A DNA stretch of 64,000 nt from Aequorivita soesokkakensis (lineage in GTDB: Bacteria > Bacteroidota > Bacteroidia > Flavobacteriales > Flavobacteriaceae): positions 62,001-126,000 of the forward strand of contig NZ_LXIE01000023.1 of NCBI RefSeq assembly GCF_001641085.1. Direction: 5' to 3'. Each line of letters starts with the position of its first letter. Within the stretch, counting starts at the first letter, position 1. Position numbers and translations under genes: made by a program. Below, in pieces: positions 26,298 through 29,563 of this stretch. The notes beneath the pieces are model-generated. The model was not told the DNA's origin. It saw only the letters and a program-made list of their open reading frames with translations, and searched no databases.

Positions 26298-27251
26298 ATG
26301 CTTACAAGCTTTTTCGGAAAATCTAACCCAATAAATTATTTAATTCTCGGCGCTTTTATTGTTGTGGGCTATTTATTGGGTGCAATTTCGGGGTCTTCAA
26401 TTGTAATTACGCCTTTTTTAGTGCTTGACCACGGATTTTTTATTGTTCTCAATGTGTTGATTATGTTGCTGTTGGATTTCATTATCCGAAAAAACCACTT
26501 AACAAAAAACAACACTTTTGCGATTCTTTTTTTTACGTGTTTTTTGGTAATGCTTCCGGTTATTTTTCTTCAGCATAAAATACTTTTGGCAAACGCATTT
26601 CTTTTATTGGCCTTGAGAAGGATAATGAGCCTTCGAAGCGATAAAAATTCCTCAAAGAAAATTCTGGATGCCAGTATTTGGATTACCGTGGCTTCCCTTT
26701 TCTATTTTTGGAGCCTCTTGTTTTTCATTCCGCTATTTATTGCGGTTTTTCAAAAACCAAATACAAATTACAAGCAAATCCTTATTCCATTTACTGGTTT
26801 TGTGGCGGTTTTGATTATTAATACGGCATATCAATTACTGACCAACGATTCCCTCTTTTGGTTTGCAGACTGGCAGGAAACCATAAGTTTTGACTTTTCA
26901 AAATACAACTCGGCTTCCATTTTGGTGCCGATAACCGTAATACTTGCTTTTTTTATTTGGGCAGGAGTGTATCGGTTTTTGAAACTTTCCGCAATTCCCC
27001 TAAAGGAGCGGCCCAATTATCTTTTACTGCTTTACGTGAGCATTACCGCATTGTTTGTTGCCTTGGCGGGACCTGAAAAAACGGGAGCCGAGATAGTTTT
27101 TGTTTTGGCACCCATCGCGATTATAGCAACCAATTATATTGAAAATTTTGAAACGGAACGCTATGTTGAAAAAGATGTTGCCGAATTTTGGTTCAAGGAA
27201 ATTATGCTTTGGCTAGTGGTTGTTTTGCCCTTTGTATTTTTATTTTTATGA
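26298..27251 (+). CDS. DUF6427 family multi-pass membrane protein
   Basis: 317 residues, about eight to nine hydrophobic helices (starting NPINYLILGAFIVVGYLLGAI), separated by short basic loops. It fits the flavobacterial DUF6427 family, function unknown. It lies beside purD and the DUF6341-like gene, as commonly seen in this group. Its stop overlaps the ATG of the putative endonuclease gene (ATGA at 27248-27251), so translation of the next gene may be coupled to it. Confidence 0.75.
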   Translation: MLTSFFGKSNPINYLILGAFIVVGYLLGAISGSSIVITPFLVLDHGFFIVLNVLIMLLLDFIIRKNHLTKNNTFAILFFTCFLVMLPVIFLQHKILLANAFLLLALRRIMSLRSDKNSSKKILDASIWITVASLFYFWSLLFFIPLFIAVFQKPNTNYKQILIPFTGFVAVLIINTAYQLLTNDSLFWFADWQETISFDFSKYNSASILVPITVILAFFIWAGVYRFLKLSAIPLKERPNYLLLLYVSITALFVALAGPEKTGAEIVFVLAPIAIIATNYIENFETERYVEKDVAEFWFKEIMLWLVVVLPFVFLFL

Positions 27252-27892
27252 GCGCGCTGGATTTAGAAAATATTGAAAAGGAACTTAAAAAAAGATGCCA
27301 ATTTCCCTATAAATGGTTTCGGAAACAGAATGATCAGTGGGATCGTTTTACCCAATTTATCTACCAAATTCCCAATTGGGAAGCATTAGTTCGGAAGATT
27401 GCAATTGTTGCAGAATCACAGGAAGTGGACAAGCAGCAAATATTTCAATATGCCGCCAATAGGTGGTATAATTTCTGGAGCGCACAGGCTGTGGAACAGA
27501 TTTTCACTGAGATTGACGGAATTGAACCAGTAGCCGAAACAAAAGATTCCGAAAAGGATTTTTATCTCTTCGGAATTCCTTTTGACCATAAAACTTCTGT
27601 TTTTCCGAAGCAATTCAACAAAACTTTTGAATATGCCCAAAACCATAAAAGCGAACTTATTGAATGGCTCTACAAAAACCAAAGCACCCAAAAGCGGCAT
27701 CACTTTAAAAACCGTCTTTTTATTGTGGTTTTTGAAAGGAACGGTGAACATTGGAAACTGAAGGCTGAAATTTCCCTTCTTAAAAAGTCTATTCAAAAAT
27801 ATGCGGCATCTTTCCGGCCAGAGCAATTGCAATCCTTTACTTTTGTTGACGGACAAACAACGTTAAGCGATATTATCTGGGTTTCTAAATGA
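27248..27892 (+). CDS. Unrecognised protein, candidate PD-(D/E)xK restriction endonuclease
   Basis: 214 residues with no family I recognise. A possible nuclease core can be read: Glu83 in the helix SAQAVEQIF, Asp104 (EKDFYLFGIP), then Asp113-His-Lys115 in PFDHKTSVFPK. This gives the E...D...DxK spacing of many type II enzymes, and a beta-rich LFIVVFERNGEHWKLKAE segment follows. It is sandwiched by ATGA overlaps between DUF6427 and a DNA adenine methylase, the arrangement of a type II restriction-modification pair. ATG 27248 is chosen over an upstream in-frame ATG at 27188, which lies inside DUF6427. The nuclease role is inference. Confidence 0.55.
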   Translation: MSALDLENIEKELKKRCQFPYKWFRKQNDQWDRFTQFIYQIPNWEALVRKIAIVAESQEVDKQQIFQYAANRWYNFWSAQAVEQIFTEIDGIEPVAETKDSEKDFYLFGIPFDHKTSVFPKQFNKTFEYAQNHKSELIEWLYKNQSTQKRHHFKNRLFIVVFERNGEHWKLKAEISLLKKSIQKYAASFRPEQLQSFTFVDGQTTLSDIIWVSK

Positions 27893-28887
27893 ACTATATA
27901 GGCTCGAAACATAAACTCTCCAATTTCATTTTTGAAACGGTTGCCGAAACTTGCGGCGACAATCTTTCACAAAAAACATTTTGCGATCTTTTTGCGGGAA
28001 CTGGAATCGTAGGCCGAAACTTTAAACCACACGTAAAACAAGTGATAGCCAATGATGTGGAATATTACAGTTATGTACTGAACCGAAACTACATCGGCAA
28101 TCATATTGCTTTTGATTACGAAGAATTCATAAATGAATTGAATTTGCTCAACGGAAAGAAAGGCTTCATTTTCCAAAATTATTCCGAAGGCGGAAAAGCT
28201 GGAAGAAATTACTTCACTTCAGAAAACGGACAAAAAATAGATGCTGCTCGCACCCAAATTGAGGAATGGAAAAAAGCATCAAAAATTACGGAAGACCAAT
28301 ATTATTTTCTACTTGCTTCTTTGCTTGAAAGTGCTGATAAAGTAGCAAATACGGCTTCGGTTTATGGTGCTTATTTAAAACACATAAAGACTTCCGCGGC
28401 AAAAAAAATCATTATTAAACCAGCCGTTTTTCAAGAAACGACGAATTCGCATCAAGTATTTCAGCAGGATAGCAACGAGTTGATTAAAAAGATAAAAGGC
28501 GATATTCTCTATTTGGATCCGCCTTACAATGCGCGTCAGTACGGCGCCAACTATCATTTGCTGAATACTATCGCAAAATATGATACCTTTGTGCCAAAGG
28601 GGAAAACGGGCCTGCGCGATTACTATAAAAGCGATTGGTGCAGAACCGGAGAAGTACTGAAAAGTTTTGGGGAATTGATTGAAAAAGCACAATTTCCCTA
28701 CATTTTCCTAAGTTATAACAACGAAGGATTAATGAGCCAAAAGGAAGTGCAAACGGTGATGGAAAGCTTCGGAAAATACACTTTGAAAACCAAAAAATAC
28801 CAACGTTTCAAAGCAGATAAAACCGAAAACAGAAACCACAAAGCCTCAGAGACTTTTGAATATTTACACATTTTAGAAAAATCATGA
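27889..28887 (+). CDS. D12-class DNA N6-adenine methyltransferase
   Basis: 332 residues. Motif X NYIGSKHKL (2-10), motif I DLFAGTGIVG (33-42), motif II Asp57 (ANDVEYYSYVLNRN) and motif IV LDPPYNARQY (209-218) occur in the order X-I-TRD-IV of alpha-type (Dam-like) adenine methylases. Residues about 80-195 between motifs II and IV would recognise the target. AdoMet is the donor. It overlaps the upstream candidate endonuclease by four bases, so it probably protects the host DNA. The recognition sequence cannot be predicted. Confidence 0.9.
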   Translation: MNYIGSKHKLSNFIFETVAETCGDNLSQKTFCDLFAGTGIVGRNFKPHVKQVIANDVEYYSYVLNRNYIGNHIAFDYEEFINELNLLNGKKGFIFQNYSEGGKAGRNYFTSENGQKIDAARTQIEEWKKASKITEDQYYFLLASLLESADKVANTASVYGAYLKHIKTSAAKKIIIKPAVFQETTNSHQVFQQDSNELIKKIKGDILYLDPPYNARQYGANYHLLNTIAKYDTFVPKGKTGLRDYYKSDWCRTGEVLKSFGELIEKAQFPYIFLSYNNEGLMSQKEVQTVMESFGKYTLKTKKYQRFKADKTENRNHKASETFEYLHILEKS

Positions 28888-28948: not shown

Positions 28949-29563
28949 ATGTTCTCAGACAAAGCCAACAAAATCTTCGCAGAAGTGATTGACAAATACC
29001 ACGAAATAAATACTGTGGACCAAAATTTCAGCAATCCGTATGATAAAGACAGTAATTTAATTGAACATTTGTTGTATCGAAAATGCTGGATAGACACGGT
29101 TCAGTGGCATTATGAGGACATCATCCGCGATCCGAATATTGACCCCGTTGCTGCCCTAAAGTTAAAGCGCCAAATAGACGCTTCAAACCAAGACCGTACA
29201 GATATGGTGGAATACATTGACAGTTATTTCCTCGAAAAATTTAAGGATGTAAAGGTGAATGATGACGCAACCATCAACACTGAAAGCCCAGCTTGGGGTA
29301 TTGATAGGCTTTCTATTTTAGCTTTGAAAGTATATCATATGAACGAAGAAGCTACCCGTACGGATGCTTCCCAAGAACACTTGATGGCCTGCAAAGCGAA
29401 GTTGAATATCTTGCTGGAACAACGTGTAGATTTAAGCACCGCCATCAACCAATTGCTGGATGATATTGCTCAAGGCAGAAAATATATGAAAGTCTATAAG
29501 CAGATGAAAATGTACAATGACGATGAGCTAAACCCAGTGCTTCGCGGAAATAAAGCCCCCTAA
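28949..29563 (+). CDS. DUF4254 family protein
   Basis: 204 residues, mostly helical and soluble, with IEHLLYRKCWIDTVQWHYEDIIRDP and LKRQIDASNQDRTDMVEYID, as in the DUF4254 family of Bacteroidota. Function unknown; the gene commonly precedes a GT9 transferase, as here, suggesting a part in lipopolysaccharide core or lipid-linked glycan metabolism. ATG 28949 is used; the in-frame TTG at 28901 falls inside a repeat. The last codons (Ala-Pro-stop) are formed by a C-rich repeat at 29552-29579. Confidence 0.85.
   Translation: MFSDKANKIFAEVIDKYHEINTVDQNFSNPYDKDSNLIEHLLYRKCWIDTVQWHYEDIIRDPNIDPVAALKLKRQIDASNQDRTDMVEYIDSYFLEKFKDVKVNDDATINTESPAWGIDRLSILALKVYHMNEEATRTDASQEHLMACKAKLNILLEQRVDLSTAINQLLDDIAQGRKYMKVYKQMKMYNDDELNPVLRGNKAP

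Follow-up and report, generated by a model that had tools for sequence, protein, structure and literature searches.

We analysed a 64,000-nucleotide stretch of Aequorivita soesokkakensis (contig NZ_LXIE01000023.1, positions 62,001 to 126,000; hereafter the window), in which two adjacent genes form a candidate type II restriction-modification (R-M) system. The first gene, R (27248..27892, +), is an intact open reading frame for a predicted PD-(D/E)xK type II restriction endonuclease of 214 residues, and the second, M (27889..28887, +), is an intact open reading frame for a D12-class DNA adenine methyltransferase of 332 residues, predicted to protect CATG. The stop codon of R and the start codon of M overlap by ATGA (27889..27892, +), as do the stop of an upstream DUF6427 gene and the start of R (27248..27251, +); both overlaps had been reported in a first-pass annotation and can be read directly in the sequence. 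Because the stop of DUF6427 overlaps the start of R, and the stop of R that of M, the three genes would be translationally coupled, and are probably translated together. Nevertheless, the DUF6427 gene (26298..27251, +; Pfam E 1.6e-8) and a DUF4254 gene (28949..29563, +; Pfam) were judged to be the left and right borders of the slot that holds the system, and not parts of it. In four of four R-less genomes inspected this slot is empty and DUF4254 directly follows DUF6427, so DUF6427 probably does not belong to the R-M system.

Conservation and predicted fold of R

The first-pass annotation could not place R in any family, and the family libraries agreed. Even at E up to 1, neither Pfam nor PADLOC had a family matching R (the Pfam ICEA model PF05315, which also had no match in the window genome, included), and only chance-level rows were returned from NCBIfam (best E 0.037) and PHROGs (best E 0.18). 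By sequence, R had no relative in the PDB, where R profiles (built from alignments A1 and A5) gave nothing or chance matches. Relatives were nevertheless recovered by a pattern-based scan of 84,980 species genomes, which yielded 44 loci in Aequorivita, Dokdonia, Lutibacter, Ignavibacteria, other Bacteroidota and one Gracilibacteria. A plasmid search with R gave a single match, on a Priestia plasmid (28% identity), a phage search gave none, and two viral-contig searches gave four and two loci, with one contig common to both. One 70-kilobase contig filed as viral (IMG/VR) carries R plus an M-type methylase (L200:2983-4601).

The residues singled out earlier for their PD-(D/E)xK spacing, E83 (27494..27496, +), D104 (27557..27559, +) and D113-x-K115 (within the D113-H-K115 codons, 27584..27592, +), lie where they had been placed and did not vary in an alignment of relatives (41 of 41 rows) with identities down to 28% (Priestia row included; L003, L006, L007, L009 and L010 were left out of this alignment, A1). 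Y68, R72, W73, N75, Q145, R150, N155, R156 and others were likewise invariant in these 41 rows. The four catalytic-type columns were also invariant in a 45-row alignment and, renumbered, in 10-row and 14-row alignments that include distant relatives of 363-368 residues; outside these alignments, the divergent viral relative L202 has, by eye, an N at the place of D113 (N-x-K).

An AlphaFold model of R (predicted local distance difference test, pLDDT, 91.4; predicted template modelling score, pTM, 0.88) places these residues in a core made of a long helix ahead of the sheet (62-87, with E83), strands 92-94, 105-107 and 110-118, helices within 127-144 and a strand at 156-162. D104 stands immediately before the second core strand, and D113 and K115, the (D/E)xK motif, are on the third. 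This helix-strand-strand-strand-helix-strand succession, with residues so placed, is the PD-(D/E)xK order, and R has the conserved D...(D/E)xK and the acidic residue in the preceding helix by which such nucleases are recognised. Matches to solved folds were weak, which counts against a nuclease: the best Foldseek match was EcoO109I at E 0.13, and EcoO109I also came top in a VIA search (Z 4.0, root-mean-square deviation 6.8, 127 aligned residues), tied with unrelated rows. Among the 50 VIA rows listed, 28 are nucleases that we class as PD-(D/E)xK, and 15 of these 28 are PA proteins (influenza or Thogoto). The type II PD-(D/E)xK nucleases EcoO109I, PspGI, Ecl18kI and 3ndh (which we take to be ThaI) were among the top or listed rows, but at Z 2.6-4.0 and deviations of 4.5-6.8, and they share with R no similarity found by sequence search of the PDB. 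Nothing in a viral structure library matched strongly and, also against a nuclease, a model of the distant relative L060 (pLDDT 91.1) found no convincing nuclease match in structure searches. For the fold suggested by the first-pass annotation, the core order, the placing of the residues and the restriction nucleases among the matches speak in favour, but no match was strong.

Could R instead be a small non-nuclease partner of the methylase, for example a controller or accessory protein? The lack of a strong match to a solved nuclease and of a family name would fit, but the invariant E, D and DxK fall in the right structural elements, and members of the R family are found beside methylases of unrelated kinds and, in one case, joined to a methylase in a single protein (see below). 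The CATG depletion described below also argues against such a partner, because a published survey links site depletion to those type II systems whose endonuclease and methyltransferase are separate proteins and, in the vast majority of cases, finds no such link for other types (PMC4687349). We therefore give this alternative very little credence, and hold with high confidence that R is a nuclease.

Methylase partners of R and their link to NlaIII and IceA

The assignment of M to the D12 adenine methylases, made earlier from its motifs, proved sound. M matched Pfam MethyltransfD12 at E 3.1e-53 (181.5 bits for a cut-off of 22) and was covered almost end to end by the PADLOC model MTase_II PDLC03257 (E 1.1e-139); FAGTG (motif I, 27991..28005, +) and DPPY (motif IV, 28516..28527, +) are both present. 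Searches of the PDB with M and an M profile found no chain. RsmD + DUF3822, a common pair in Bacteroidetes, was considered for the two genes and rejected, as M matches MethyltransfD12 and the RsmD-type models stayed below their cut-offs (22.7/24 and 20.4/117.5 bits).

We then asked what accompanies R elsewhere, using stretches of up to about 6 kilobases on either side of R in the 44 loci. A profile search found a methylase of M's D12 family near R in 26 loci, a methylase of the N6/N4 type, unrelated to M (PF01555, E about 1e-23), in 15, and neither type in three (L034, L042 and L044). Genome-wide, an M-type gene was present elsewhere in the genomes of L042 and L044 and of a further carrier of R (G478), and an N6/N4-type gene elsewhere in carrier G821, so that four of the five searched genomes without a methylase neighbour hold one at a distance; this search did not extend to G814, whose contig ends within R, and covered Priestia as a plasmid record only. 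The pairing first proposed from this single locus therefore extends to 41 of 44 loci, with two of the other three having a methylase elsewhere; it fails in the L034 genome, which carries R and in which neither type was found genome-wide, a point against an R-M system. Neither type was found in two genomes with a divergent R (G676 and G739). In stretches from further genomes, the D12 type was found in 17 of 20 carriers from the window's own family (f1) and the N6/N4 type in 18 of 20 carriers from a second family (f35); these are partly the same species as the 44 loci, and some are the same contigs (e.g. L079/L012, L095/L041). In a midpoint-rooted tree of 61 R proteins (excluding L009, the second contig of a metagenome-assembled genome), the N6/N4-partnered rows formed one cluster (96/79 support) among the D12-partnered rows, as expected from a single exchange of partner. 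G821, which has no methylase neighbour, falls in this N6/N4-partnered cluster.

Some loci carry additional genes between R and M. In L006 (6642-7480), as in L013 and L019, a two-gene module stands there, in L006 UPF0175 + DUF3368 (Pfam), which we take to be toxin-antitoxin-like; the first 19-21 codons of M are repeated on the R side, and the module has inserted with a long duplication of its target, without damage to M. Another two-gene module, DUF6364 plus a PIN domain, occupies the same place in L008 (6734-7406).

M's family also keeps company with a nuclease of another kind. Of 56 genomes searched, 5 had an ICEA protein, and all five were among the 47 carriers of R (G865 one of them); none was found in 34 non-carriers, but since control genomes also gave none, absence from non-carriers is unproven. 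G865 has a further methylase of M's family, 58% identical to M, directly beside its ICEA protein. The ICEA protein of G424 has an M-type methylase (67%) after it and, one gene upstream, a methylase of the N6/N4 partner type (E 1.7e-87). Between R and M of G595 there is what remains of an ICEA start. A DHKDGR motif is present in these ICEA proteins; two were scanned, and one of them had a weak HNH_3 match (E 0.0096). R, in contrast, has a DxK motif and no match to the ICEA model. NlaIII is an HNH enzyme. Among the ten phage relatives listed for M, five bear the annotation 'ulcer associated adenine specific DNA' methyltransferase, the name of HpyIM. In Helicobacter pylori, M.HpyI reads CATG and is paired with IceA1, according to an excerpt of PMC4450513, and iceA1 is termed a functional isoschizomer of NlaIII in an excerpt of PMC2816704. 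The NlaIII/IceA1-HpyIM systems (ICEA, PF05315) would thus share their methylase family with M. Because relatives of M adjoin ICEA proteins and R is unlike these, the nuclease is a different one while the methylase family, to judge from sequence similarity, is common to both nuclease families.

CATG avoidance in genomes carrying R

The first-pass annotation had named no recognition site. In the window and in the Aequorivita, Dokdonia and Ignavibacteria loci, CATG was the top-ranked four-letter palindrome by z, and its observed/expected ratio was the lowest in the Aequorivita (0.44) and Dokdonia (0.13) loci. R is carried by 29 of 397 genomes of the window's family and by 32 of 80 of f35, which allowed carriers and non-carriers to be compared within each family. 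With carrier stretches surrounding the R locus, and stretches under 7000 bases dropped (4 f1 and 2 f35 non-carriers), the median CATG observed/expected was 0.47 in 20 f1 carriers (2 with a divergent R, G676 and G739, included) vs 0.81 in 16 non-carriers (p 4.5e-6), and 0.40 in 20 f35 carriers vs 0.78 in 18 non-carriers (p 2.4e-6). No other four-letter palindrome differed at p <0.01 in both families; GATC differed in the window's family (p 0.007) but not in f35. The CATG difference was maintained in stretches far from the R locus, both in the window's family (0.49 vs 0.81, 16 vs 16, p 2.2e-5) and in f35 (0.41 vs 0.78, 4 vs 18, p 1.4e-4), after removal of the ICEA genomes from the window's family (p 3.7e-6, 17 vs 16), and in genus means (p 6.4e-6 for 13 vs 16 in the window's family, ICEA genomes and G676 removed; p 2.6e-4 for 9 vs 13 in f35). 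When all 136 four-letter words were scanned (without the ICEA genomes G424, G595 and G739, and without G676), CATG was the best in both families, with a combined log10 p of -10.9 and the next word at -3.5, and none of 507 five-letter and 1720 six-letter testable words reached it.

The effect could be followed within a single genus, g363, where carriers had 2 CATG for 118 expected (G880), 9 for 63 (G587), 2 for 176 (G865) and 61 for 133 (G873), G880 and G587 being without ICEA, and six non-carriers had ratios of 0.48-0.71. All ten NCATGN contexts were depleted (0.08-0.21) in the pooled g363 carriers, G865 included, suggesting that the avoided word is CATG itself. Site avoidance in the host genome, as expected of a type II R-M system, was thus seen for CATG, with exceptions. 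As both the D12-partnered and the N6/N4-partnered carriers are CATG-poor, these results suggest that CATG is read by R, the component that stays constant.

Several observations weigh against CATG as the site. In the window itself its ratio (0.45) is not the lowest, CTAG being at 0.42 and GATC at 0.53, and in the Ignavibacteria loci GGCC (0.22) and CTAG (0.40) lie below CATG (0.48). Carrier G326 has a CATG ratio of 0.81, carrier G444 has 0.82 far from the locus and 0.40 at it, carrier G873 has 0.46 vs 0.48 in a non-carrier, and G865, with its 2 CATG for 176 expected, also has ICEA. Kinship among carriers and non-carriers was corrected for by genus means only. Three R-less Aequorivita genomes are CATG-poor too (G847 0.32, G864 0.51, G855 0.57), so that the link between R and CATG is not seen inside the window's own genus. 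Here a recent loss of R is a plausible explanation, if a rescue argument, because site avoidance can be the trace of a lost R-M system, according to the same survey (PMC4687349). G855 keeps M plus the last 44 codons of R; in G847 and G864, DUF4254 comes directly after DUF6427, with a weak 21-residue trace of M (E 0.008) between them in G847. The deletion of R with M kept in G855 would also suit a nuclease that has decayed or become inactive, leaving the pair with DNA marking only; however, in 25 of 28 Aequorivita genomes R has no internal stop, and its four residues are invariant in every aligned row, and we give this idea hardly any credence.

The same observations bear on whether R and M have a site other than CATG, with CATG lost through NlaIII-like or unrecognised systems in the same genomes. 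The ICEA genes, all found in carriers, the CATG-poor R-less Aequorivita and the GATC difference in the window's family, albeit not in f35, would all be consistent with this. Nevertheless, the effect persists when the ICEA genomes are removed, it recurs in two distant families whose partner methylases are unrelated, no other testable word of four to six letters comes near CATG, and every flanking context is depleted in the pooled g363 carriers; we consider another site unlikely. In the Ignavibacteria loci (e.g. L024-L040) the pooled GGCC ratio of 0.22 is probably due to another system, because its difference between carriers and non-carriers is weaker (p 0.046). In the literature, we found no paper linking Dokdonia with CATG, and a single one linking Aequorivita with restriction-modification.

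Altogether, the invariant residues, the core order of the model, the methylase company and the CATG depletion support the type II R-M pair with a PD-(D/E)xK candidate that the first-pass annotation had put forward, to which the present analysis adds CATG as the probable recognition site. R and M most likely constitute a type IIP R-M system, in which R, a small nuclease of the PD-(D/E)xK kind, would recognise and cut unmodified CATG in incoming DNA, and M would methylate the adenine of CATG and so protect the host. The prediction that M is a CATG-specific N6-adenine (m6A) methyltransferase is supported by the ICEA company of its relatives and by the site avoidance. Of this activity, we infer the cleavage, the methylated base, the cut position and phage protection. 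Such a CATG barrier would affect DNA entry into Aequorivita, Dokdonia and Ignavibacteria.

Other CATG enzymes and distant relatives of R

The mechanism proposed here is ordinary; what is new is the nuclease family, absent from the libraries searched, and the history of its partners. We lean, by a small measure, towards a history in which an uncatalogued PD-(D/E)xK family cutting CATG took over a methylase of the NlaIII/IceA (HNH-like) type and later swapped it for an unrelated one, the site remaining unchanged. If true, a restriction enzyme family absent from four family libraries, and from the PDB by sequence, would have a testable site, and a recognition word would have persisted while nuclease and methylase were each exchanged for unrelated proteins.

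Two other CATG enzymes could be compared with R by description only. UpaP162 (UPV_230) of Ureaplasma parvum has been shown to cleave CATG and, in the excerpted text, its authors report no restriction-enzyme homology and no predicted endonuclease domain; its methylase is predicted to be of the 5-methylcytosine type but argued by the authors to make m6A (PMC6191088). UpaP162 may belong to R's family. CviAII (PBCV-1 A252R, with M.CviAII A251R) also has CATG as its site, with m6A methylation (excerpt of PMC7248222); no row named CviAII stood among the 50 viral-model matches listed, many of which are nameless, so that nothing is excluded by this.

Distant relatives of R were found with methylases as well. 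L060 adjoins a D12 methylase, and in L061 (1060-3243, -) the distant relative is fused to one in a protein of 728 residues; L059 stands beside another type II methylase (PADLOC E 1e-25), and L062 and L067 have a methylase neighbour similar, by eye, to that of L059. The L060 protein had no match in plasmids or in phages. Genomes with the 363-368 residue subfamily or the fused form (G283, G128, G303, G338, G048 and G229, R being broken in G303) had CATG ratios of 0.55-0.94, and G337, whose relative has 277 residues and is accompanied by the N6/N4 methylase type, had 0.41. A comparable CATG deficit is thus missing from the 363-368 residue subfamily, the recognition site of which likely differs, and we propose CATG for the group of ~205-230 residues only.

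Divergent R-like proteins without a methylase neighbour are encoded in L097 (9941-10636), L098 (9914-10612) and L202 (2968-3585), those of L097 and L098 beside genes that by eye resemble DEAD-box helicases. In the genome of L097 (G676) the CATG ratio is 0.20-0.23, although neither methylase type was found there. In two genomes, G283 (L213-L215) and G338 (L220), the distant relative of R has a D12 methylase as its partner; there GATC occurs 9 times for 200 expected and once for 53, and GGCC 3 times for 160 and once for 40; GATC may be the site of that distant subfamily, or other systems in these two genomes may be responsible.

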